From a virus: a stretch of 41,758 bases of DNA. Every line of letters starts with the position of its first letter. Position 1 is the first letter of the stretch. Position numbers and translations under genes: made by a program. The notes under the pieces were generated by a model. The model was not told where the DNA came from and ran no database searches. It was given only the letters and a program-made list of their open reading frames with translations. Location: the IMG/VR virus record IMGVR_UViG_3300035523_000130, positions 1 to 41,758 of that record. One strand, written 5' to 3'. Positions 4,096 to 38,850 of the stretch are shown here, piece after piece.

Positions 4096-6690
4096 TTACC
4101 AGTTGGCAGTAACAGAGAGTTGGCTCACCCCGACGTTGTGAGTCGGCTGAGCGGATTCGTAAAGCAGGCGGAACTTGGCGGCGCGACAAGTAAAGTCGCC
4201 AGCCATGAAGGGGAACCAGGCACTGTAGGCAACGCCATCAGGGCTAAGGGCTGCCAGCAGGGTGACGGTGGCGTCGTTGATGGCAAGACCATCTACTGAG
4301 TCCCAGTCATCTACTGGGCCGCGGAAGTCGATGAAATCGCCGGTATCAAAGGCCAGGGCCTGAATGTTGGCCGTAAAGCGCCGAGTGCCTACCGTGCCGA
4401 AGTCCATCACGGCGGCAAAGTCGTAAGTGCCGGCACTATTGACGCCACCAAGGGAGTCCAGCATTCCCCAGGCATCCACAAGAGCGGCCATGGAGTCGAT
4501 GGGAACAGAGCCGTCTAACTGGAGGCTGCTACCGACTACCACCAAGCCAGACTTGCTACCTGCCCAGGTGGTGTTTTCTGTCAGCGTCTGACTGTTAGGC
4601 AGCGCCGTCAACGTGCCGGCCGTCAGCACCCAACTTGCAATTCCGGTGGACCAGTTGCCGGTGCTGTCCTTGAACTTTGCCATGTAGGTGCCAGTCAGCA
4701 TGGGCAGCTGGCCAGAAGTCGCATCACCATTGAATTCGCCAACGGGGATACCGTTTTCCCAGTGTGCCCCGGTAGTCATTGGGGTCCAGCGCAATACGGT
4801 GCGGCCGCCAATGCGGACATCAAGATCCGGGCTTAAGTCCCATTGACCGAGGGCAGTTCCGTTGCTGGCAACTATGGTGAGATTGGCGACGTCCGCAGGC
4901 GCCGCCGTCAAGCCAAGGATCTCGACATTGGTACGGCCGGCCCAGTCGCTGCTCTTGCCAAGGGCGTTGATGGCAGAGATCCGGAAGTCCCAGCGGTTGG
5001 GAGCCAGATCGAATAGCTCATAACTTGTGGCCGGCGTGTCTGTGCTTTGCCAATCGGTGTCGGATGTGAGCTTCCACTGCAGCTGATATCCCACGATGAA
5101 CGGTGCATCAGCAGAAGCCCAGGAGACAACAGCCTTGACCTTAACGCCAGCACTACCCGTGGTCTGATACTGCACCTCAGCGATGGCGGGAACCCCAGGG
5201 GCCGCAGGTTGAGCTGTCGGATTGGGAAGATTGGTGACCAAGGTTGAGCGCGACGGCGTTGCGAAGTCAAACACATACACGCTGGGGTCGTACTCGCGAA
5301 CGACGACTTCTACCTCATCGCTCGACTTCGGCGACATCTGCAGCACGCGGAAGGGCTTATTGATCCAGCCAGGCGTGGAGTGTGTGATCGTCACCACATC
5401 ACCTACCTCGGTCCGCAAACCTTCCGGCAGCGCTGTAAAGCTAGCCGTTAGGCCAAAACGACTTTGCCGTACTTCCTGGATGCCAATGTAATTGGCGATC
5501 TCCATCTTGCTGGTAAAAGGAAGCTCGAGGGCCAACTCAGATGGGTTTCCACCATCGAGAGCGGTGTAGGTATTGTTGATGAATGGCAGTATCTGTGGCT
5601 GGTAGCGGTTCAGCTCATCGTAAAAACGCAACTTGGCACGGTTGTATAGCGCCCGCTTCTGCGGCCCTCCGAATTTCCATCCGCCCGTGATGTTGTCTTC
5701 GGTGAAATCGAAGGTGCTGCTCAACGCTTCCTCGAGGCGGAGCTTGAACAAACCACCCGAGTAGATCAGCATGCCGCGGCAGCTGGTTAGCATTGTCTTG
5801 AGGTTGTCGAAAGCCGAAGAATCGACATTGACAACCCCGTTCGACACGTACTTTGGACCGGAATAGCTGCCCAAGGCGACTGGGGCATCGCAACTGTTCG
5901 CTGCGGCAATGAAAGTGGCGTCGTCTATAGATGATTCAGCCACTCCCCGACCATAGCGGCTGTTGGTCAGGTAATCCCTGATCATCAGCGAAGGGTTGCT
6001 GCTGAAAGCCGTCAGCCCCGTCCTCGGGTCATAGAGTTTGCGCCCTTTGACTGCCGCAGTGATCACCGGTAGTCCGTGGAAGGCATCCTTGTTGTAGGTC
6101 AGCCGCACGTAGATGTAGGCAACCCCTCGCAGCCTGCAGCTCGACGTCCAGTCGGGGATTTCAGCCATGAGGTCTGGATCTGCCAGTTGCTCATCGCTAC
6201 CCAGATACTTCTTGACACGAACTACACCGGAATATGTACCGGAGGTAGCCACACCGTTAGCATCCAGGGCCCCCACAGCATTGCCGTCGAGATAGATCTC
6301 GTCGATGGACTCGATCTCACCCTCACCCAGCACAAGCACTACGTGGAAGAACTCGTTACTGCTACCAGATGCAGCTGCGAAAACCCGGGAACCGCCGACA
6401 ATCCGAGACCCGTAAATAACAGGCAAGGGTTCCACGTTAGAGGAGACATTGACCAAAGCCCCCTGAGCCGCCTGAGTAGCAGCAGAGTTGATTTTAGGAG
6501 TCTCTGCGTCCGGCGCAAGCGCGGAAGCGACTAGACCGCCGGCCATCAACCCGGCAGCACCAGCAACCAGTTCAACAGCCAGGCCACTTGTGAACAAAAA
6601 CTCCCCGCCAACAACCGCTGTCAAAGCCCAATCAGTGACAGCCGTTTCCACGACACTGGAAACGACCATTGCAACTGCTGCGCCGGCCAT
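4096..6690 (-). CDS. J-like tail tip / host specificity protein
   Basis: An 864-residue protein in the lambda gpJ position. It starts with an Ala/Val/Gly-rich hydrophobic segment (residues 1-60), followed by a hub-like region (NVEPLPVIYGSRIVGG near residue 95 and KGRKLYDPRTG near residue 216). Two fibronectin type III-like modules follow (about residues 490-600), then a beta-rich C-terminal domain. Proteins of this kind form the tail tip, start tail assembly and contact the host receptor. The gene begins at an ATG overlapping the stop of the acetyltransferase-like gene (TAATG). Confidence 0.85.
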   Translation of the reverse strand: MAGAAVAMVVSSVVETAVTDWALTAVVGGEFLFTSGLAVELVAGAAGLMAGGLVASALAPDAETPKINSAATQAAQGALVNVSSNVEPLPVIYGSRIVGGSRVFAAASGSSNEFFHVVLVLGEGEIESIDEIYLDGNAVGALDANGVATSGTYSGVVRVKKYLGSDEQLADPDLMAEIPDWTSSCRLRGVAYIYVRLTYNKDAFHGLPVITAAVKGRKLYDPRTGLTAFSSNPSLMIRDYLTNSRYGRGVAESSIDDATFIAAANSCDAPVALGSYSGPKYVSNGVVNVDSSAFDNLKTMLTSCRGMLIYSGGLFKLRLEEALSSTFDFTEDNITGGWKFGGPQKRALYNRAKLRFYDELNRYQPQILPFINNTYTALDGGNPSELALELPFTSKMEIANYIGIQEVRQSRFGLTASFTALPEGLRTEVGDVVTITHSTPGWINKPFRVLQMSPKSSDEVEVVVREYDPSVYVFDFATPSRSTLVTNLPNPTAQPAAPGVPAIAEVQYQTTGSAGVKVKAVVSWASADAPFIVGYQLQWKLTSDTDWQSTDTPATSYELFDLAPNRWDFRISAINALGKSSDWAGRTNVEILGLTAAPADVANLTIVASNGTALGQWDLSPDLDVRIGGRTVLRWTPMTTGAHWENGIPVGEFNGDATSGQLPMLTGTYMAKFKDSTGNWSTGIASWVLTAGTLTALPNSQTLTENTTWAGSKSGLVVVGSSLQLDGSVPIDSMAALVDAWGMLDSLGGVNSAGTYDFAAVMDFGTVGTRRFTANIQALAFDTGDFIDFRGPVDDWDSVDGLAINDATVTLLAALSPDGVAYSAWFPFMAGDFTCRAAKFRLLYESAQPTHNVGVSQLSVTANW

Positions 6691-7145: not shown

Positions 7146-7780
7146 CAGTCGTAGATGACAGTGCTGAGGGTGTCGCCGGTGGGCTGCACGCCTGGTACGG
7201 TGGAGCTTCCGTTGGTGGTGCCCCAGGACAGATTCAGATTGGCCAGGCCAGGAACAAACTGGAAGCCAGTATCGCCAGGAAAAAAAACTTGCTGGTCCTG
7301 GTGATTGGTATGACGACCAGGCTTACGGTCGAAGTCGGCCCACTGGTTGGAGCACTCCATCACTAACGCACACTTTCCGGCCTGAGGATCGTCTTCAATC
7401 GATAGGCCATCCATGCGCCCCTCGAAAATAAGACCTGGCGATGTGATTACGCTCATGGTGTAGTCCAGTAGGGCCTTATAGATGCGGATCGGGCGGCCGA
7501 TGTAGGGCTTGGTCAGGGAGATGGAAATCCAGGTCTGATCGACGGCGCTGATGGACACGGTGACGCGTGGGATCTGCATGTCGTAGCTCTCGGTCAACCC
7601 CTGGAAGTCGAGGAAATGGCCGTTGGCTTTCCATGTATTGCCATTCCATGAAATATCACGCCAGGCATCGCACTGGTAGTAGCTGATATCGTCAAACTGT
7701 TCCTGAACTAGATAGACTGGTTGGTTGCGCGACTGGAGAAGCTCGGCCAGGAACACTGGAGAAAAGCCACGGCCTGCCAT
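7145..7780 (-). CDS. Tail assembly protein after tape measure (211 aa)
   Basis: A 211-residue protein with beta-rich composition and a motif (GRMDGLSIEDDPQAGKCAL) followed by FDRKPGRHTN and PGDTGFQFVPGL. The latter resembles the region seen in phage minor tail and baseplate hub-type proteins encoded between tape measure and J. No catalytic motif is apparent. Its ATG touches the stop of the gene before it. A structural tail-tip role is inferred from context. Confidence 0.65.
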   Translation of the reverse strand: MAGRGFSPVFLAELLQSRNQPVYLVQEQFDDISYYQCDAWRDISWNGNTWKANGHFLDFQGLTESYDMQIPRVTVSISAVDQTWISISLTKPYIGRPIRIYKALLDYTMSVITSPGLIFEGRMDGLSIEDDPQAGKCALVMECSNQWADFDRKPGRHTNHQDQQVFFPGDTGFQFVPGLANLNLSWGTTNGSSTVPGVQPTGDTLSTVIYD

Positions 7781-27687: not shown

Positions 27688-28074
27688 ATGACGGAATTTA
27701 AGGAAAGACTCATTACAGCCCGCGAGACTGCAGGGCTAACACAAACGGAGCTAGCCAAGAAAGCTGGCTGCCGCCAGTCCGTCATTGGAATGCTTGAATC
27801 GGGGGCTCGCCGCAATACCAAACACCTGCTTGGGATAGCAAAAGCCCTATCAGTATCTCCAGAATGGCTAGAAACTGGTCAAACATCACTGACTGCTTGC
27901 GAACCAACAGCAAGTTATGGACTTCCTAGCCCAGAAGAGGCAATAGTCCTTCAGGCATTCCGCTTAGCCAGTCCAGATATGAGGCTAATGTGGCTAACCC
28001 AGGCAAAGATCATCATAGAGACAGCCGACACCCCCTCAATGCTCTCCGGCAAAAACGGGCCCAAGCCAGGATGA
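27688..28074 (+). CDS. Phage repressor, short XRE-family HTH
   Basis: A 128-residue protein with an N-terminal XRE-type HTH: RETAGLTQTELAKKAGCRQSVIGMLESGARR (about residues 10-40). The C-terminal part is short and has no S24/LexA-like Ser-Lys peptidase domain, so RecA-stimulated self-cleavage is not expected. Induction would need an antirepressor or another signal. It is divergent from the Cro-like gene across three operators. There is no clear Shine-Dalgarno before the ATG, so its mRNA too may be leaderless. Confidence 0.82.
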   Translation: MTEFKERLITARETAGLTQTELAKKAGCRQSVIGMLESGARRNTKHLLGIAKALSVSPEWLETGQTSLTACEPTASYGLPSPEEAIVLQAFRLASPDMRLMWLTQAKIIIETADTPSMLSGKNGPKPG

Positions 28075-29761: not shown

Positions 29762-30139
29762 ATGGAACACGAACTAAAGCAAGGGCAAGCACTTGTCATC
29801 GTCGGGGCCCAGGGCAGCGGAAAGACCACATTGGCTCGGAAGATTGCCGAACGGTATGGTTCGTTTATCGAGGTCAGTGCTGATCGATTGGAATCGCATC
29901 AAGGACTGAACGATCTTCTGGCACACGCCAAGCAAACAGTAATTGTTGAAGGCTTCCCAGAGAACAAAGAACAGCAGTGCTGGCTTAAGGCACTAATTAC
30001 TACCCCCACCATCAAGGTAGAAAAAAAGTACGGCGTGGCGGAAACGGTCAAGGTGCCGAACTTCATCTTTTGTACCAGCGATGCTGATCCCCTTCCAAAG
30101 ATTGAGCCAGGCCGTCGCTTCCGAGTGATCAAGCTATGA
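29762..30139 (+). CDS. Small P-loop ATPase-like protein (125 aa)
   Basis: A 125-residue protein with a clear Walker A motif VGAQGSGKTTLARKIAERYG (about residues 15-34) and a Walker B-like strand KQTVIVEGFP (near 60). KVPNFIFCTSDADPLPKIEPGRRFRVIKL closes the protein, like the end of an AAA-type core. It is half the size of normal AAA proteins, so it may be a compact kinase-like or accessory ATPase. AGGAA precedes the ATG. It is two genes before the DGR target genes. Confidence 0.75.
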   Translation: MEHELKQGQALVIVGAQGSGKTTLARKIAERYGSFIEVSADRLESHQGLNDLLAHAKQTVIVEGFPENKEQQCWLKALITTPTIKVEKKYGVAETVKVPNFIFCTSDADPLPKIEPGRRFRVIKL

Positions 30140-30332: not shown

Positions 30333-30950
30333 ATGAATGCACCCGCACCAACCATCATCCCCGCCATTGGCGCTACCGTCCCTGGTGGCTTCTTTGCTGG
30401 CACCATTCTGATTGATGATCAACGTTATGGCTTGGCAGTACCGCCCAAAGCCTTGGGGGAACACAAGCCCACCATCTGGATTCCTAACTACAAGGATATC
30501 CCTGGTGCCAAATCTTTCTACGACGGCCTAGCTAATACCCGGGCAATGGCTGAGGCTGGCAGCAAGCTGGCCCAGTGGGCGCTTGAACTGGAAATCGATG
30601 GTTGCACCGATTTCTACATCCCAGCTCAAGATGAGAAGGAAATCATCTACCGGGTATTCAAGCCTGGTACTGCTAAGAACTCCCAGTACGCGCGCTCCGG
30701 CATCAACTTGTCAGCCCTGCCGCCGACTCGTCCTTATTCGCTGGAAAACCCTGCTCAGACGGTTATCGAGGCTTTCCAGGAGGGAGGTGTCGAGGCTTTT
30801 GAAGCTGATGCCTACTGGACATCCACGCAGCACGCAGCCATTTCCTATTTTGCCTGGTACCAGGGTTTCAGCTACGGCGTCCAGTACGGCCTCAACACCA
30901 ACCTCAAGCTGCCTGCTCGCGCCGTCCGCAGATTTCATTTACCCCTTTAA
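30333..30950 (+). CDS. DGR variable protein 1 (C-type-lectin-like, DUF1566/Lcl type)
   Basis: A 205-residue target protein. The N-terminal 150 residues contain an Ala/Pro-rich start, AGTILIDDQRYGLAVPP and LEIDGCTDFYIPAQDEKEIIY. The variable C-terminus has YWTSTQHAA, then AWYQGF and KLPARAVRR, the layout of DUF1566 (Lcl) domains that adopt a C-type-lectin fold. Residues altered relative to the template are I170, Y172, F173, G178, S180, Y181, V183, Y185, G186, L187, L191 and V198; N188 and N190 keep the template codon. No signal peptide. The ATG at 30333 has AAAGGA 7 nt upstream; a longer frame is rejected. Confidence 0.9.
   Translation: MNAPAPTIIPAIGATVPGGFFAGTILIDDQRYGLAVPPKALGEHKPTIWIPNYKDIPGAKSFYDGLANTRAMAEAGSKLAQWALELEIDGCTDFYIPAQDEKEIIYRVFKPGTAKNSQYARSGINLSALPPTRPYSLENPAQTVIEAFQEGGVEAFEADAYWTSTQHAAISYFAWYQGFSYGVQYGLNTNLKLPARAVRRFHLPL
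30826..30933 (+). repeat. Variable repeat VR1
   Basis: A 108-bp segment at the 3' end of target gene 1 aligned without gaps to TR 32032-32139. I count 17 differences, all at TR adenines (A to G, T or C). The GC-rich 3' part (CTGCCTGCTCGCGCC) is fully conserved and would serve as the initiation-of-mutagenic-homology region. Confidence 0.96.
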
Positions 30951-30982
30951 TCCTTCATCCATTTCTTTCAGGAGATAACGCC

Positions 30983-31471
30983 GTGCGCGTCAATCAAAAC
31001 GAGTCGATAACGCTGGCTGTTGCTGGCGCTGATGTCACCATCCCGGCGGCTACTTTGGCTGATCTGTGGATCAAGAAGCTATTAGCCAGCAGCGCGCAGA
31101 TGACTGATAGCAGCATGCTTATCAAGCAACCCCCTCTAGCCGATGGAGAGATTTACCTCGGCGCCATCATCACTCCCAAGATTCGTAAACACATCATCTT
31201 GCTGCCCGGTGAAAACGCTGATGCCAATTGGAAGCACCAAATGGAGTGGGCAGCCAGCATAGGTGGCCAGCTTTTCGACCGAGTAGAGGGGGCACTTCTC
31301 TTTGCCACCATGCCCGAGCAATTCAAGAAAGAAGCGTACTGGACCCGCGAGCAGCCCGCAGCCATTTCAGGTTGTGCCTGGTACCAGGGTTTCACCAGCG
31401 GCCTCCAGAGCAGCAGCGACACCGACGGCAAGCTGCCTGCTCGCGCCATCCGCAGCGAATCCATTGAGTAA
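30983..31471 (+). CDS. DGR variable protein 2 (DUF1566/Lcl type)
   Basis: A 162-residue second target, GTG start at 30983 with AGGAG upstream. IILLPGENADANWKHQMEWAASIGGQ and FDRVEGALLFATMPEQFK are typical of the family of lectin-fold DGR targets. The variable end begins after AYWTREQPAAI and has AWYQGF and KLPARAIRS. Altered residues include P125, I128, G130, C131, G136, T138, S139, L141, S143-S145, D146, D148 and G149. It shares only the fold and the VR with protein 1, so the two have distinct scaffolds fed by one template. Confidence 0.9.
   Translation: MRVNQNESITLAVAGADVTIPAATLADLWIKKLLASSAQMTDSSMLIKQPPLADGEIYLGAIITPKIRKHIILLPGENADANWKHQMEWAASIGGQLFDRVEGALLFATMPEQFKKEAYWTREQPAAISGCAWYQGFTSGLQSSSDTDGKLPARAIRSESIE
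31351..31455 (+). repeat. Variable repeat VR2
   Basis: A 105-bp segment aligned without gaps to TR 32033-32137. I count 17 differences, all at TR adenines. The 3' conserved GC-rich part matches TR exactly up to CGCAG. Confidence 0.96.
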
Positions 31472-31501
31472 TTCAGTCCTTTAACTATTTCCTTACTCAG
31501 C

Positions 31502-31873
31502 ATGGCACTCCACACCGAGCTACCGATACATAAGACAGCCTACGACCTGCTGGACATTGTCGTGGATCTCATAAAAAACATGCGCAGGGACTTTAAGCAC
31601 TCCCTGGGCGGTGAGTTGCGCGATGAATGTCTGGCAGTCCTAGTGTCCATCTTTCGAGCCAATGTCGCCCGAGAAAAAACGCCTCATCTGGACCAGCTCA
31701 TTGAGCATATTCAGGTAGCAGTTCTCCTCTTGCGCCTTGCACGGGATAAGCGATTCATTTCGACCGAGCAATTCGCTCGAACGATGCCGCTCACCCAAAG
31801 TATCGGTAAACAGGCTGTGGCATGGCGCCGTTCCGCCGCATCGCCCGATTCACGGGGGTCAAGGCTCCCATGA
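31502..31873 (+). CDS. avd: DGR accessory variability determinant (Avd-like)
   Basis: A 123-residue basic, all-helical protein of the four-helix-bundle type found in DGRs: YDLLDIVVDLIKNMRRDFKHSLGGELRD near the N-terminus, then FRANVAREK and HIQVAVLLLRLARDKRFISTEQFA. Avd forms a pentamer that binds the RT and the TR RNA and is needed for retrohoming. Its place between VR genes and TR matches the usual DGR order. The ATG at 31502 lacks a strong ribosome-binding site. The last few residues could be a read-on beyond the folded domain. Confidence 0.85.
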   Translation: MALHTELPIHKTAYDLLDIVVDLIKNMRRDFKHSLGGELRDECLAVLVSIFRANVAREKTPHLDQLIEHIQVAVLLLRLARDKRFISTEQFARTMPLTQSIGKQAVAWRRSAASPDSRGSRLP

Positions 31874-32031
31874 CTGTGCGAATTCTTGATCTGGTCGTGC
31901 CGCTGGCTCACAAGGCCACCGCTATGTGCATCACGGAGACTACCGGCAGCCTGCCGGAACAGTCCGGCGCAGTTTCCTTGCTGATCGGCCAGAACGGACT
32001 TCGGCAGGGCGACGTAGATAGCACGATAGGT
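31874..32031 (+). other. Non-coding leader between avd and TR
   Basis: 158 bases with no convincing gene and several GC-rich inverted repeats (for example around 31944-31970, where GGCAGCCTGCC is followed by GGAACAGTCCGGCG). In other DGRs the functional RNA extends beyond TR on both sides and folds to bind Avd-RT, so this is probably part of the template RNA. Confidence 0.5.
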
Positions 32032-32139
32032 CGCAGCACGCAGCCAATTCAAATTATGCCTGGTACCAGGATTTCAACAACGGCAACCAGAACAACAACA
32101 ACACCAACAACAAGCTGCCTGCTCGCGCCATCCGCAGAT
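32032..32139 (+). repeat. Template repeat TR
   Basis: A 108-bp template containing about 37 adenines. Read in the VR frame it encodes A-N-S-N-Y-A-W-Y-Q-D-F followed by nine AAC codons among ACC, GGC and CAG, then KLPARAIRR and a stop. AAC is the codon that adenine mutagenesis diversifies most widely without creating stops. TR lies upstream of, and partly inside, the RT reading frame. Confidence 0.96.
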
Positions 32140-33255
32140 GAAACACGGCACCACCCTGCTGATCTTTTTATTGCACTGGTACAGGCCTATTACGCCTGCC
32201 GGGAGAACAAACGCAATACCGAAAGCGCCCTGGACTTTGAGCAGCACCTAGAGCGAAACCTGTGCAACCTTTACGATGAACTGGTCGAGGGAACCTATCG
32301 TCCTGGTCGCAGCATCTGCTTTGTTGTCACCCGCCCGAAGCCTCGCGAGGTATGGGCTGCCGACTTCCGGGACCGCATCGTTCACCACCTGCTCTACAAC
32401 CATGTTGCGCCACGGTACTACGCCAGCTTCATCGCCGATTCCTGCGCTTGCATTCCGGGCCGGGGCACCCTCTACGCCGCCAAGCGGCTGGAATCAAAAG
32501 TGCGCAGCATTACCCAAAACTGGAGCAAGCCAGCCTTCTATCTCAAGATGGATGTGGCTAACTTCTTTGTCTCCATCAACAAGCAGGTTCTATATGAACT
32601 ACTAGCAGCCCGAATCACTGAGCCCTGGTGGTTAGGGCTGACCGATACCATCCTGTTTCATGACCCGCGCCAGAACTTTGAGTATAGGGGCCGTATCGAT
32701 CTGCTTGGCCTAGTGCCGGAACATAAGCGCCTGACCAACCAGCCAAGTCATCTAGGGCTACCCATCGGCAACCTGTCCAGCCAATTCTTTGCCAACGTTT
32801 TTCTCGACGTACTGGATCAGTTCTGCAAACACAAGATCGGCGCTAAGCACTACATCCGCTATGTGGATGATTTTGTCCTTCTGCATGAATCACCACAGTG
32901 GCTAAACGATGCGAAAGAGCAAATTGAAGCTTTTGTTATCAAACGCCTCGGTCTTCGCATCAACCCCACCAAGACCATTCTTCAACCAATAGATCGTGGG
33001 ATTGATTTTGTCGGGCACGTCATCAAGCCATGGCGTACTGAACCCCGCAAACGTACCGCCAACGCGGCCATGACACGGGTCATGACAGTACCTACCGATT
33101 CTTTGTTTGAAACCGCCAACAGCTACTTTGGCTTGTTCCGCCAAGCCACCGCCAGCCACCAGCAACGGTGCCGACTGGCAAATCACCTTCGCCGACGAGG
33201 CCACACCATCAACGGCGCCATCACCAAAACCTACCGCAGGAGAAACCACGCATGA
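32056..33255 (+). CDS. DGR reverse transcriptase
   Basis: A retron/group-II-like RT. Conserved blocks are RPKPREVWAADFRDRIVHHL (fingers), FYLKMDVANFFVSIN (catalytic Asp), GLPIGNLSSQFFANVFLD, and YIRYVDDFVLL with YVDD at 32860-32871. The SQ in place of QG in motif 4 is the DGR signature linked to low fidelity. The start is uncertain: the only downstream ATG before the conserved domain is at 32056, inside TR, and the frame stays open to 31822. If 32056 is used, TR is translated as a Thr-rich leader. The stop overlaps the ParB-like start (ATGA). Confidence 0.93.
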   Translation: MPGTRISTTATRTTTTPTTSCLLAPSADETRHHPADLFIALVQAYYACRENKRNTESALDFEQHLERNLCNLYDELVEGTYRPGRSICFVVTRPKPREVWAADFRDRIVHHLLYNHVAPRYYASFIADSCACIPGRGTLYAAKRLESKVRSITQNWSKPAFYLKMDVANFFVSINKQVLYELLAARITEPWWLGLTDTILFHDPRQNFEYRGRIDLLGLVPEHKRLTNQPSHLGLPIGNLSSQFFANVFLDVLDQFCKHKIGAKHYIRYVDDFVLLHESPQWLNDAKEQIEAFVIKRLGLRINPTKTILQPIDRGIDFVGHVIKPWRTEPRKRTANAAMTRVMTVPTDSLFETANSYFGLFRQATASHQQRCRLANHLRRRGHTINGAITKTYRRRNHA

Positions 33256-35792
33256 ACGCACCTACCCCGGCTGGCGCCTTGGCGCTGCCAAGCATCCCCC
33301 TGGTCGACATTACCCCCTCGCCCACCAACCCCCGCAAGCATTTCGACGAGGGCGCTCTAGCTGAACTGGCAGCTACCATCAAGGATCATGGCGTCATCCA
33401 GCCCATTACTGTGCGCCCTAACCCCAAGGGCGAACCGCTTTATGAAATTGTGGTGGGCGAGCGGCGCTGGCGTGCTTCCCGGCTCGCTGGCATGACGGAC
33501 ATTCCCGCCTTCTGGCGCGAACTCACCGACCAGCAGGTGCTTGAGATCCAGATCATCGAAAACCTGCAGCGCAACGACGTGCATCCCCTGGAAGAAGCCG
33601 AGGGCTACCGTTTACTGATGGAAGAGCACGGCTATACGGTCGAACAGATCGCCAACAAGATCGGCAAGGACTTGCAGAAGAAGTCCTACGTCTATGCCCG
33701 CCTCAAACTGCTGGACCTATGCCAGGAAGCCCGCAACATCATGTTCGAGCGCAAGCTCGATGCCTCCACCGCCCTGCTAATCGCCCGCATCCCGACCCCA
33801 GGCTTGCAGAAACAGGCACTGAAGCAAATCGCGGTCGAAGGCGCAGAACCAATGTCCTACCGGGCTGCCAAAAACCACATTCAGCATAACTTCACCATCA
33901 GCCTCAAACAGGCTACCTTTAGCCTGACCGATGCCAGCCTGGTGGAAACCGTGGGCAGCTGCCAGGACTGCACCAAGCGTAGCGGAAATGCCCCTGAGCT
34001 TTTCGGCGATACCGACGATGCAGACGTCTGCAGTGACACCAAGTGCTTCGATGCCAAGAAAGCCGCCAAGCAACAGAAGCTGATTGATGAAGCCTCCGCC
34101 AACAGCATCCCCATTTTGCGCGGTGACGATGCCAAGGCTGTCATGCCATGGGGCCGTAATACCCTTGACGATGAAAAGTACATCGACCTGGACGATGTGG
34201 CTGATGGTGATGTAGAGGAACGTACCTACCGCGAGATCCTTGGCGACACTGCTCCAGTGTCAGCCCTCATTGAGTCGAATGGACACCAAGAGAAGGGCAT
34301 TCTGATTGAAGTAGCAGAACCCTCTGCCTTGGCCGAGGCCTTACAAAAGGCAGGCTGGAAGCCGCAAGAGCAACCCGAGGAAAACACTGGCGACACGCCA
34401 CGCTTCCCGACAGTTCGCGTCATTACCCCAGAGCAGATCGAGGCCGAGCACAAGGAACGGGAAGCCAAAGAGCGCGAGAACAAGATCGAATCCGCATGGC
34501 GCGAACGGCTGATTGATCAGTGCCTATTTACCCTACCCGACACCCTGTTCGACCAGGACACCCTGGAAAAGACTATCAAGATCTTTGCTGGCCAATGGGT
34601 CGACATGGAAGCCGAGTTTTCTGGCATCGACGAGGATTTAGTTGCTAAGTACGGTCACCACATCCCAGAAGAGTGCGACCAAGAAGAAGCAGCGGCCACA
34701 TTGATCAAAGCGATGCAGCAGTGGGATCTCGGCAAGGTGATCACCTACCTGTTCGAGTCCATCATTCGACAACGCTCCGAAAAGATCGTCGGCTTCTACT
34801 GGAAAGATGGGCAGCAATTCCGCGATCAGCCCAATACCACCATGGCACTGGCCGAATTCCTTGGCATTGACCATACCCGCATCCGCGCTCAGGTAGTTTC
34901 AGAGATCAACGGCGATTCCCAGCCGAAAACCAACGGGAACCCCTCTAAAAAGCCCAAGAAAACCACCAAATCGACCCCTTCTGGCCTTGCCGAAACTGCC
35001 CCTACCCCAAAAATGGCTGCGCCGGCGGCGAGGATAGGTGACGCGGAGGATGGACTGGAAGCCCGCCCGAACATCCGCTACGCCCTATGGGGCTCCGCTG
35101 GCTGGATAACCTGGAGCGGTAAGGGGAAGAAGCCCGCTTGGATCGAGCAATGGCTGGCGAATGGAAAAACCCTGGAAGACCTGGAAGCAAAGGCAGATCC
35201 AGCGCCCGCTGCGCAGGCGAACGAAAACCCCACCTCCGACGCGACCGGGGATAACTCCGGCGAAGAAGAGAATCTAGCCCAGGCTGCGCCTGGGAACGAG
35301 TCGCCTGTGGCGACGGGTGCAGACTCAACCAATGGCGACCTCTTCGGCCAGGTCAGCGGCGACTGGCCCCAGCCCAACGAGCACGGTGTCTATGCCGCCG
35401 ACCAGGCCGAGCTGATCACTATCGACACGAAGAAGGCCAAGATAGAGGGCTACGTGCTGCAGATCGGCGCCGAGTCCTGGATCTGGGCCGTGGACACAAC
35501 GCGCAAGGGAGCAACCACCGGAGGCAGTTCGTCCCCCCTCACCGCTCACCAGGTCACCGCCACGCGTGATGGAGCGATCGCCATAGTCGGCCAGGAAGCC
35601 TCTCAGCACGTCTACCGCTGGATCGATAGCGATGGCATCAATGCTGACTTCAAGCGCATCAAGGCCTGGGCCGATGAGCTGCTGGTGAATGGCGAGAACG
35701 CCGAGTGCCTGGCTAAGAAACCAGAGGAGAAGAAAGCCACGATCTCCGTGCCCGTCAGTGAGTGGCCCTTCCCCACGGGGAGCCGGCCATGA
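33252..35792 (+). CDS. Very large ParB-like protein (846 aa)
   Basis: An N-terminal ParB/Spo0J domain (about residues 12-110) contains PSPTNPRKHFDEGALAEL, VGERRWRASRLAGM and ENLQRNDVHPLEEAEGYRLL. An HTH follows (YTVEQIANKIGKDLQKKSYVYARLKLL) and a Cys-containing segment (SCQDCTKRS ... CSDTKCFD, about 230-265). After that comes an unusual long region with charged helices and two low-complexity linkers (about 560-610 and 640-710). Ordinary ParB proteins have about 300 residues, so the C-terminal half is extra. It may bind the palindromes listed here. No ParA-like gene is present. The ATG at 33252 overlaps the RT stop. Confidence 0.85.
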   Translation: MNAPTPAGALALPSIPLVDITPSPTNPRKHFDEGALAELAATIKDHGVIQPITVRPNPKGEPLYEIVVGERRWRASRLAGMTDIPAFWRELTDQQVLEIQIIENLQRNDVHPLEEAEGYRLLMEEHGYTVEQIANKIGKDLQKKSYVYARLKLLDLCQEARNIMFERKLDASTALLIARIPTPGLQKQALKQIAVEGAEPMSYRAAKNHIQHNFTISLKQATFSLTDASLVETVGSCQDCTKRSGNAPELFGDTDDADVCSDTKCFDAKKAAKQQKLIDEASANSIPILRGDDAKAVMPWGRNTLDDEKYIDLDDVADGDVEERTYREILGDTAPVSALIESNGHQEKGILIEVAEPSALAEALQKAGWKPQEQPEENTGDTPRFPTVRVITPEQIEAEHKEREAKERENKIESAWRERLIDQCLFTLPDTLFDQDTLEKTIKIFAGQWVDMEAEFSGIDEDLVAKYGHHIPEECDQEEAAATLIKAMQQWDLGKVITYLFESIIRQRSEKIVGFYWKDGQQFRDQPNTTMALAEFLGIDHTRIRAQVVSEINGDSQPKTNGNPSKKPKKTTKSTPSGLAETAPTPKMAAPAARIGDAEDGLEARPNIRYALWGSAGWITWSGKGKKPAWIEQWLANGKTLEDLEAKADPAPAAQANENPTSDATGDNSGEEENLAQAAPGNESPVATGADSTNGDLFGQVSGDWPQPNEHGVYAADQAELITIDTKKAKIEGYVLQIGAESWIWAVDTTRKGATTGGSSSPLTAHQVTATRDGAIAIVGQEASQHVYRWIDSDGINADFKRIKAWADELLVNGENAECLAKKPEEKKATISVPVSEWPFPTGSRP
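34019..34032. repeat. Copy 4 of 14-bp palindrome (perfect TGCAGACGTCTGCA)
   Basis: A perfect palindrome inside the ParB-like gene, in the codons just before the CSDTKC motif. Many chromosomal and plasmid parS sites are short palindromes near or in par genes. Confidence 0.6.
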
Positions 35793-37560: not shown

Positions 37561-37941
37561 ATGAATACACTCGACCTCCAGGCTGCTGCCGACTTCTTGG
37601 GGCTGCATAAAAACACCCTCCAGGCCAGAGCCAAGGCCGGAGAGATACCTGGTGCAAAGATCGGGAAGGAATGGCGATTCATCGACGTGGATCTGGCCCA
37701 GTACCTTCGTGATCAATACCCGGCGAATAAGATCGAGGAGAAGCAGTCGTGTCGCTCTACAAAGTCGAAGACATCTGGTACGTCTATATCACGCCACCTA
37801 AAGGGGGCCAGCGAATTAGACGCACTACTGGAACATCCGACAAAAAGGAAGCCCAGCGCATCCACGACGAACTCAAGGCAGAACTCTGGAATCGGAAAGT
37901 CAGTGGTTCGTATCTTTCCGACGCTCTCACACGGTGGCTGA
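37561..37941 (+). CDS. Excisionase-like MerR/HTH DNA-binding protein
   Basis: A 126-residue frame whose first 60 residues form an excisionase-type winged helix: LDLQAAADFLGLHKNTLQARAKAGEIPGAKIGKEWRF and VDLAQYLRDQYP. The family bends DNA at att sites to favour excision. The frame continues 64 codons past the integrase start, where its composition becomes Ser/Thr/Lys-rich, so the true functional part may be just the N-terminus. The ATG at 37561 is preferred to a start nine codons earlier. Confidence 0.72.
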   Translation: MNTLDLQAAADFLGLHKNTLQARAKAGEIPGAKIGKEWRFIDVDLAQYLRDQYPANKIEEKQSCRSTKSKTSGTSISRHLKGASELDALLEHPTKRKPSASTTNSRQNSGIGKSVVRIFPTLSHGG

Positions 37942-38819
37942 AGCAGAAGCCGAGATCCAGGAACGAAAAAAACGCCCTTAAGCAGTTTCTCCGGCTCTAT
38001 CCTGATCGCCCTATCAATGACATCACCGGGCCAGATATCGCTGAGGCCCTGGAAGACAAGTCAGCGGCTACAGCAAACCGCACTATCTCGATAGTGAGGG
38101 CTGCGCTCAACCTTGAGCATGAAGCCCAAAAGATCGGCAAGCCACCCAAAATCCCCACCAGAAGCGTCAGCAATGCCAGATTGCGCTGGCTGACTCGGGC
38201 TGAGTGGGATCGCCTCTATAAAGCCCTTCCGGCCCATATCAAGCCGATGGCCAAGTTTGCGGTATCCACAGGATTGCGCCAGGCCAATGTATTTTCATTA
38301 CGCTGGGCCGATGTGGATATGGGGCGCCGCGTGATGTGGGTTGAAGCAACCCAGGCCAAGGCCAGGAAGGCTATTGGCATTCCTCTGTCGGACGACGCGA
38401 TGGAAGCCTTGGCTTCTGTTAGTGGACAGCATGAGGATTTCGTTTTTACCTACCGAGGAAAACCTGTCGAATCAGTCAAAACAGCCTTTGGCAAAGCCCT
38501 GGCCAGGGCCGGCCTTGGTCAATGGGTTGCTGCAGACGATCCCAAGGATGAAAACGACAAGGTATTTGAGCCCAACACCACCTGGCACGATTTACGTCAC
38601 ACCTGGGCAAGCTGGCATGTGCAAGCCGGAACACCTCTGGCCGTGCTCAAGGAATTAGGTGGTTGGGCTACAATGGATATGGTTCTGCGCTATGCACATC
38701 TGGCGCCGGACCATTTGGCTTCCTGGGCGAACAATGCCACAAAGTACGCCATAGGAAATCAGGAAACCCAGGCAGCCTCGGTAGCTCAGTGGATAGAGCG
38801 ACCCCCTCCTAAGGGGTAG
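37749..38819 (+). CDS. Tyrosine-recombinase integrase, ends inside tRNA-Arg
   Basis: A 356-residue site-specific recombinase. The N-terminal arm-binding region (LYKVEDIWYVYITPP) is followed by a core-binding domain (about 50-130) and the catalytic domain. Catalytic residues are Arg177 (STGLRQANVFSLRW), His280 and Arg283 (WHDLRHTW), Trp306 and Tyr315 (LRYAHLAP). The GTG at 37749 has GGAG about 8 nt upstream. The last 14 codons (VAQWIERPPPKG and two before) are read through the 5' half of the tRNA gene, so that tail is set by the attachment site and is unlikely to matter. Confidence 0.95.
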   Translation: MSLYKVEDIWYVYITPPKGGQRIRRTTGTSDKKEAQRIHDELKAELWNRKVSGSYLSDALTRWLKQKPRSRNEKNALKQFLRLYPDRPINDITGPDIAEALEDKSAATANRTISIVRAALNLEHEAQKIGKPPKIPTRSVSNARLRWLTRAEWDRLYKALPAHIKPMAKFAVSTGLRQANVFSLRWADVDMGRRVMWVEATQAKARKAIGIPLSDDAMEALASVSGQHEDFVFTYRGKPVESVKTAFGKALARAGLGQWVAADDPKDENDKVFEPNTTWHDLRHTWASWHVQAGTPLAVLKELGGWATMDMVLRYAHLAPDHLASWANNATKYAIGNQETQAASVAQWIERPPPKG

Positions 38820-38850
38820 GTCGGACGTTCGATTCGTCTCCGGGGCACCA
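38775..38850 (+). tRNA. tRNA-Arg (anticodon CCT), prophage attachment site
   Basis: A 76-nt cloverleaf with encoded CCA: acceptor GCCTCGG pairs with CCGGGGC (one G-U), the D arm contains GCTC/GAGC, and the anticodon stem ACCCC/GGGGT encloses CTCCTAA with anticodon CCT for Arg AGG codons. The T arm carries GTTCGATTC. Because the prophage lies on the 5' side, the 5' part and upstream promoter region in this lysogen are phage-derived. The exact att core cannot be fixed without the left junction. Confidence 0.95.

Follow-up and report, generated by a model that had tools for sequence, protein, structure and literature searches.

Where on the template RNA of a diversity-generating retroelement (DGR) is the reverse transcriptase (RT) held, and from which point is the template copied? 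In the literature covered, knowledge of where copying starts derives from BPP-1, in which a spacer located 3' of the template repeat (TR) folds, recruits RT and the accessory protein Avd, and primes cDNA by an internal adenine (PMC12875486, a 2026 paper, in the sections covered). The question is raised again by IMG/VR virus record IMGVR_UViG_3300035523_000130, which was analyzed over its entire length of 41,758 nucleotides (nt), referred to here as the window; the window is a single virus record. Judged from its sequence, the locus is a complete phage DGR: a single TR is the source of adenine-only changes in two lectin-like genes, and Avd and a DGR-type RT are encoded alongside. We consider it likely that the template RNA of this DGR has a variant architecture, in which the structured RNA RT-15 forms a scaffold 5' of the TR and is joined by a closing helix to the TR 3' edge. 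The cassette contains the following features:

30333-30950, plus strand: variable protein 1 (VP1; 205 amino acids), Lcl_C/DUF1566-like by profile and model matches, with a variable repeat (VR) at its C-terminus
30826-30933, plus strand: VR1, with 17 differences to the TR, all at TR adenines, the 3'-most of which is probably ancestral
30983-31471, plus strand: variable protein 2 (VP2; 162 amino acids), with a C-type-lectin fold in the predicted structure and a VR at its C-terminus
31351-31455, plus strand: VR2, with 17 differences to the TR, all at TR adenines
31502-31873, plus strand: avd (Pfam bAvd, 2.6e-11, over the cut-off; PHROG Avd, 4.7e-30)
31839-32033, plus strand: RT-15 structured RNA (Rfam RF03018), the proposed 5' scaffold of the template RNA
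31870-33255, plus strand: open frame holding the RT, with the RT core taken from 32170 and an in-frame ATG inside the TR at 32056
32032-32139, plus strand: TR, the template, by program alignment to VR1 and VR2

The first-pass annotation of this DNA, which was made from the sequence by eye, had counted 17 differences between each VR and the TR, all at TR adenines and without gaps. Program alignment gives the same result for both repeats, with 0 differences at non-adenines. It had also listed G, T and C as the replacing bases, and these are indeed the outcomes in VR1 (8 T, 6 G, 3 C) and VR2 (12 G, 3 C, 2 T). Adenine occupies 37/108 and 36/105 positions of the two alignments, and the probability that all 34/34 changes would fall on adenines by chance is 1.5e-16; adenine-confined TR-VR change is one of the properties by which a DGR was recognized. 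The nine AAC codons that the annotation had placed at the variable residues are present when the TR is read in the VR frame, and all 9 are altered in VR2, but only 7 of the 9 are altered in VR1. The 3'-most difference in VR1 is found at TR 32130, within the 3' initiation stretch, where the TR and VR2 have A and VR1 has G. Among the RT relatives described below, the matching TR position is an adenine in only 2 of 260 TR-VR pairs, namely the two of this window. An ancestral origin of the G is therefore more likely than an origin by the DGR, and the DGR-made changes in VR1 probably number 16. Scanned on both strands, the window has no TR-like sites besides VR1, VR2 and the TR, and a direct-repeat search (at least 40 nt) agrees.

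The proteins expected of a DGR were also found. The RT has YVDD in its translation and matches Pfam RVT_1 (3.3e-16) and PHROG 1423 reverse transcriptase (2.2e-115), so that a DGR-type RT and an Avd accessory protein, both named in the first-pass annotation, are supported by translation, Pfam and PHROG. The best solved chain for the RT is 8ub7 (E 2e-36), labelled 'Reverse transcriptase', which we take to be bRT of BPP-1. None of the NCBIfam RT models was matched by the RT over its cut-off, and the Avd match to NCBIfam DivGenRetAVD (6.2e-13) is under that model's cut-off. A reading of the RT as part of a defense system was rejected, the matches to 68 PADLOC families being taken as general RT similarity.

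The RT-15 match in the window is full length, scores 175.1 bits against a gathering threshold of 82 (E 1.2e-43), which places it in the Rfam family, and ends at the first bases of the TR. RT-15 was found in 15/15 further loci, beyond the window, that were scanned with Rfam. Whole-genome searches of the families and order of Pseudomonas cichorii (G001), Paraburkholderia silvatlantica (G002) and a Zoogloea oleivorans metagenome-assembled genome (MAG; G007) gave 45 hits above the cut-off, comprising 12 hits in 10 of 198 genomes, 27 in 26 of 398 and 6 in 6 of 300; these counts include G001, G002, G004 and G007, genomes that were reached through loci found by their RT. The same search of 14 control genomes found none. 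Genes for avd and RT adjoin RT-15 in 45/45 hits, and the TR starts between -5 and +3 nt from the end of RT-15 in 44 of them, the exception being L194, in which no TR was found. Four RT-15-like matches below the cut-off (L220, L228, L229, L230) have neither RT nor avd nearby and are probably due to chance. Synonymous (pS) and nonsynonymous (pN) variation in RT-15 are 0.27 and 0.23, compared with a pS of 0.62-0.66 and a pN of 0.20-0.24 in the RT core, a pattern that fits conservation as RNA rather than as protein. A consensus fold of 67 sequences contains 50 pairs, 46 of them inside RT-15, with both-sided change in at least one sequence at 35; the TR has zero wholly internal pairs in this fold and only the bases at its 3' end are paired. 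From these comparisons RT-15 behaves as an RNA that accompanies the DGR RT and Avd.

How would an RNA on the 5' side be joined to the end of the template at which copying begins? The Rfam model stops at the start of the TR and contains an unpaired linker, and the family is named just 'RT-15 RNA'. We propose that this linker pairs with the TR 3' edge in a closing helix, which would enclose the RT-15 multibranch domain and the TR in the order stem, scaffold, template, stem. The elements of this structure are:

31885-31893, plus strand: proposed 5' strand of the closing helix, in the unpaired RT-15 linker, from covariation
31894, plus strand: G between the closing helix and P2, invariant in 67/67 sequences, a candidate priming nucleotide
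31895-31900, plus strand: P2 5' strand of the RT-15 multibranch domain, pairing with 32021-32026
32021-32026, plus strand: P2 3' strand of the RT-15 multibranch domain, pairing with 31895-31900
32135-32143, plus strand: proposed 3' strand of the closing helix, comprising the last 5 nt of the TR and 4 nt beyond it, from covariation

In the 67-sequence alignment, 85.3% of the helix cells are paired, compared with 74.8% after shuffling and 25.5-43.5% in slid registers. Both-sided change is present in 65 cells where 23.5 are expected, and the covariation score is 0.283, compared with 0.100 for shuffled alignments (0/500) and at most 0.114 for slid registers. Alignment columns G64 and G65 (31893 and 31894) are invariant in 67/67 sequences, and 7 of the 9 helix positions pair in the window. 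Across 123 dereplicated loci, a count that excludes L061 and L124 (linker anchor absent) and L148 (TR-end anchor absent), position 7 pairs in 90%, compared with 43% when partners are swapped. Among 51 non-overlapping sister pairs there are 32 both-sided changes, with pairing kept in both sisters in 18, in one in 10 and in neither in 4; slid registers keep 2-5 of 13-27, and VR flanks keep 9/29 and 5/26. Two hold-out sets were also counted at positions 6-9. A first set of 34 loci, not dereplicated, has 2.91 vs 2.31 pairs (0/5000); it excludes 8 loci identical to earlier ones as well as L194, L206 and L221, for which helix data are absent, and retains four mis-anchored loci (L187 and L217-L219). 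The later set consists of 28 dereplicated loci fetched by RT-15, with less than 95% RT identity to earlier loci and less than 90% to each other; L206, L217, L218, L219 and L221 were dropped because an anchor was missing, and L194, the locus in which no TR was found, is included. These loci have 3.11 pairs vs 2.27 with swapped partners (sd 0.116; 0/5000), and position 7 pairs in 28/28 of them, as 9 G-C, 9 C-G, 7 U-A and 3 A-U. The minimum-energy fold of 31830 to ~32147 contains the closing helix, and energy-based folding gives 0 for any slid register.

The layout was compared with 13 other DGR loci, 12 of which have the TR near the RT. The window resembles BPP-1, the target of which has a lectin fold, in the order avd-TR-RT, in adenine mutagenesis, in the C-terminal position of the VR and in its DGR RT. 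It differs from BPP-1 in having the TR inside the RT frame and two targets located away from tail genes. The avd gene of BPP-1 directly adjoins the TR, which is followed by 144 nt before brt, whereas in the window avd and the TR are 158 nt apart, an interval largely taken up by RT-15. The gap 3' of the TR in BPP-1, where the structured spacer lies, is matched by Rfam Phage_DGR (RF03022); no match to this family was found in the window between 29500 and 34000, and a structured spacer of the BPP-1 type was not found between TR and RT. In 158 loci of the RT-15 family the distance from TR end to RT core is 14-61 nt, with a median of 29, and the median distance from avd to TR is 156 nt (one misplaced avd at -1201, three at -34, the others 9 to 231). 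In the comparison DGRs the TR end is 147-333 nt from the RT core in 11 of 12. The remaining one, from Bacteroides phage F2 (L170, 4731-4997), has 113 nt between avd and TR and 50 nt between TR and RT core, lacks an Rfam match, and is a possible independent case of a 5' scaffold. In BalMu-1 (L171), Rfam RT-14 is located at 4786-4929, directly 3' of the TR (end 4784), and from this position RT-14 looks like a 3' DGR spacer. The RNA that trails the TR in DGRs is described as ~200 bp with predicted structure in the covered part of a review (PMC8867640). A spacer hidden in the RT gene of the RT-15 family was considered and rejected, since the codon identity of same-residue pairs is 1.00-1.19 in the six windows over codons 1-40, compared with 0.96-1.32 over the entire gene; no excess synonymous conservation was found in the first RT codons of 134 representatives. 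Within the 345 nt examined, variability peaks between the TR end and the RT core (heterozygosity 0.42-0.46, open-frame loci). The structured domain of the RT-15 family therefore appears, from alignment and spacing, to lie 5' rather than 3' of the TR.

Parts of this arrangement have been described before. DGRs with two targets and overlap between TR and RT are already known. The DGRs of structural group 3 in DiGReF (PMC3521204) have an overlap between TR and annotated RT open reading frame, with multiple VRs also reported, as in the window, where the overlap is present without clear protein-level selection. That group was classed by annotation, a 5' RNA or helix is absent from the sections covered, and in those sections the authors regarded spatial arrangement as irrelevant to mechanism. 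The DGR of Burkholderia phage Magia belongs to the same family as that of the window, with an RT that is 63.6% identical, Avd and small lectin-fold targets (PMC7883833, in part); the covered passages of the genome announcement place the DGR targets in genes 47 and 57 and contain no RNA element. A third VR was observed in Magia (L085) at ~7497-7584, in gene 46, which is annotated as hypothetical. A literature search for RT-15 or RF03018 alongside DGRs found no mention of either, in a coverage that lacked some key works. RT-15 as a 5' template scaffold with a covarying closing helix was likewise not found in the literature covered, and key works outside this coverage may link RT-15 to DGRs.

Retron RNAs have the order stem, scaffold, template, stem. 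The likeness to the RT-15 DGRs, in which covariation suggests that a closing stem ties the 5' scaffold to the 3' end of the template, is one of analogy only. The window RT scores 45.9 bits against NCBIfam retron_St85, the sole retron RT model matched, which has a cut-off of 235, and the RT is thus not placed in a retron family.

Is the retroelement active? The relatives of the RT were taken as the best 80 of 290 viral loci and the best 80 of 110 genome loci. By record title they are mostly from Beta- and Gammaproteobacteria, with a few MAGs labelled otherwise, and include the isolated phages Cruim01, Magia, QDWS and LPPA56. A TR-VR pair is located at the 5' end of the RT in 158 of 166 sequences, window included; the eight without a pair are L027, L037, L094, L107, L113, L145, L153 and L168, some of which are contig ends. 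Some sequences are duplicates; at 90% identity, 134 remain of the 165 that have a usable RT. At least two VRs are present in 144 of the 166 sequences, so two targets are the norm in the family. Extra VRs were observed ~2-5.6 kb upstream of the RT core in L102, L109, L115, L134, L143, L154 and others, and 7.2 kb upstream in L085, which indicates that one TR can serve distant targets too. An Ideonella plasmid (L180, 4346-7745) has two avd and two RT genes arranged in tandem. Changes between TR and VR in the family number 4206 at adenines and 73 at other bases, a ratio that is partly by construction because the TR-VR finder allows up to 3 non-adenine mismatches per 60 nt; this does not apply to the counts for the window itself. 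The 3' limit of the changes was located in the 260 pairs mentioned above, 76 of 336 TR-VR pairs having been left out because they lack a 3' anchor. Of the adenines 15 nt upstream of a conserved GCCGTCCGCA stretch 40% are changed (40 sites); the value is 3% one nucleotide closer, at 14 nt (218 sites), and 1% for the A within the GCCGTCCGCA stretch (260 sites). Sporadic altered A sites are present in the otherwise unchanged 3' stretch, at 3/14 for -9, 1/9 for -7 and 1/4 for -11, so the limit is steep but not absolute. Near-identical pairs of loci have VR differences in 5 of 13 cases and none in 8, and some of the 8 invariant pairs probably represent one record present in two collections. Between L011 and L012 there is no difference in the 900 nt of RT compared, in RT-15, in the TR or in the 240-nt VR flanks; of their three VRs, two match exactly and one has 14 differences, each at a TR adenine. 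The 19 differences between L045 and L046 are confined to TR adenines, as are 19 of the 20 between L035 and L036, with VR flanks not measurable in either pair. The VRs of L040/L084 and L026/L039 also differ, with flanks that are less alike. Recent DGR activity is thus visible in the family from sequence comparison, and near-identical relatives with unlike VRs are an indirect sign of mutagenic retrohoming. The first-pass annotation had held that both targets in the window look currently or recently diversified; this is supported through relatives only, most clearly by L011/L012.

The architecture proposed here has to be weighed against several observations that count against it. The closing helix was first spotted by eye in the same 67-sequence alignment in which it was later counted, and the number of further pair types in that alignment (15 vs 13.9 shuffled, 172/500) is not above the shuffles. 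Only 56% of the 123 loci have a TR pair at position 6, where the VR flank would reach 82%. A set of 57 dereplicated loci absent from the first alignment has a smaller excess (2.46 vs 2.11 pairs, sd 0.096), and the top of 5000 shuffles (2.54) exceeds the observed value. Energy-based folding recovers the helix in 16/67 sequences, or 10/67 with RT codons added, and the window helix is lost when the minimum-energy fold runs from 31830 to 32215. Rfam recognizes an RNA 3' of the TR in only 2 of the 13 comparison loci, so that for the 11 without a match over threshold the 3' layout rests on spacing. Lastly, over the 75 dereplicated open-frame loci used for pN/pS by region, the ratio in the RT-15 part is slightly lower in the RT frame (0.85) than in the other frames (0.99 and 1.05). 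This ratio also favors an alternative, in which translation of RT-15 and the TR gives the RT a true N-terminal extension, so that the TR is dual-coding and the upstream conservation is that of a protein. The frame is open from 31822 to 33255 (477 amino acids), runs through the TR, which ends ~30 nt ahead of the RT core, and has an ATGA overlap with avd; many tblastn relatives align from residue 1 in one piece, and in 75 of 133 dereplicated loci the frame stays open over 100 codons or more ahead of the RT core. However, the frame is closed in the other 58, and pN/pS in the RT frame, 0.85 in RT-15 and 0.94 in the TR, is far from the 0.33 to 0.36 of the RT core, while the TR has 0.44 in the VR frame. 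Codon positions in RT-15 are almost equally variable (0.259, 0.263, 0.284). There is no clear protein-level constraint on the part of the frame upstream of the RT core; a dual-coding TR was rejected on the codon-position variability, pN/pS and the closed frames, and we regard an extended RT as very improbable. An ATG, GTG or TTG in the RT frame is present inside the TR in 140 of 158 loci.

RT-15 could instead be a regulatory leader of rt that controls translation or transcription and is not part of the template RNA. Its position between avd and rt is in keeping with this, but the TR starts at its end in 44 of the 45 hits and covariation connects its linker with the 3' edge of the TR, two findings that make a leader alone unlikely; RT-15 may have a double role as leader and as part of the template RNA. 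A further alternative is that the window cassette is a relic. The prophage is known from a single copy and 2 of the 9 closing-helix positions are unpaired in it. Against this, both targets, avd and RT are all open frames, neither VR has a single non-adenine change and relatives are diversifying, and a relic seems to us quite improbable.

If RT-15 is the 5' scaffold, a mechanism can be proposed. A single transcript over avd, RT-15, TR and rt would be both mRNA and template, and RT with Avd would bind the RT-15 scaffold. The closing helix would present the TR 3' end where copying must start. The cDNA would then begin in the GC-rich stretch just 5' of the closing helix, a starting point that fits the 3' limit of the adenine changes, and proceed through the adenines to RT-15, after which the mutated cDNA would replace VR1 or VR2. 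Priming may take place from the RT-15 scaffold. One guess is that a 2'-OH within the closing helix or next to it acts as the primer, as in retrons, with the invariant G where the helix ends (31893/31894) as a candidate site. It is conceivable, and is suggested here only tentatively, that RT-15 DGRs form a second mechanistic class, with retron-like priming by a 2'-OH in the 5' scaffold, a branched RNA-cDNA carrying the mutated VR copy and no adenine primer in a 3' spacer. RT-15 might alternatively do no more than recruit Avd and RT, with priming as in BPP-1 from an unconserved 3' segment in rt. BPP-1, the DGR of which has been reconstructed in Escherichia coli, does prime in its 3' spacer (PMC12875486, sections covered), and any transcript that contains rt has RNA 3' of the TR. 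However, the high variability of the stretch between TR and RT core and the lack of excess conservation in the first RT codons speak against such a segment, and a predicted 4-bp helix between the TR end and RT codons hardly covaries; this possibility is also a doubtful one.

The two target proteins differ in how well their fold is supported. VP2, which provides the C-type-lectin-fold target with a C-terminal VR expected of a DGR, is predicted with high confidence to have this fold (predicted local distance difference test score, pLDDT, 92.5; predicted template modeling score 0.71). Its top Foldseek match is the Lcl C-terminal domain (E 1.4e-3). VIA-align gives Z 13.6, a root-mean-square deviation (rmsd) of 2.2 and 101 aligned for the Bd2740 C-terminal domain, and Z 13.2, rmsd 4.1 and 113 aligned for that of Lcl. 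Pfam Lcl_C at E 0.01 is matched by 23 of 27 members of the VP2 alignment but not by VP2 of the window itself. Support for VP1 is weaker, with a Pfam Lcl_C match below cut-off (0.0052), a PHROG 4245 match (3.8e-24), and a model with pLDDT 82.5 whose top Foldseek match is again the Lcl C-terminal domain (E 0.066, prob 0.91). BPP-1 has stem-loops downstream of its VR; a search for such stem-loops in the window found no case of at least 7 nt after VR1 and a single 7-bp repeat after VR2.

The minus strand of the window has genes for terminase, portal, major head protein, tape measure, fibre J and endolysin. The DGR cassette occupies the plus strand, flanked by a repressor-like gene (27688-28074) and a ParB-like gene, with both target genes away from the tail genes. 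An integrase frame (37749-38819) overlaps tRNA-Arg (38775-38850) and is followed by a bacterial GAF/PAS/cyclase gene, which together indicate a provirus with a right-hand host flank. Direct repeats of at least 40 nt, searched for in the window as provirus ends, were TR/VR copies only, and the left boundary was not found. With the alignments and profile matches, the integrase at tRNA-Arg and the host gene uphold the initial description of a prophage DGR with one template, two adjacent variable genes, avd and RT. The ParB-like frame (33168-35792, 874 amino acids; Pfam ParB_N, HTH_ParB, Histone_HNS) overlaps the end of the RT frame and has a match to an H-NS C-terminal domain at residues 648-673. 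Upstream of the cassette, a short AAA/VapE-like ATPase frame (29762-30139, 125 amino acids) resembles part of larger primase-type families.

What does the arrangement mean for DGRs? Members of the RT-15 family occur in many Beta- and Gammaproteobacteria as well as in phages of these bacteria. The family appears to be without a 3' spacer and to have its structured RNA on the opposite side of the template. If this is true, the essential design of a DGR would be a closed loop that keeps the 3' end of the template on a scaffold, and the order of the parts would be secondary. RT-15, an Rfam family without a stated function, would gain a role, and a DGR with a 5' scaffold would be a candidate for targeted-diversification tools. 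If retron-like priming is also true, retrons and DGRs would be joined mechanistically and the function of RT-15 would be explained.

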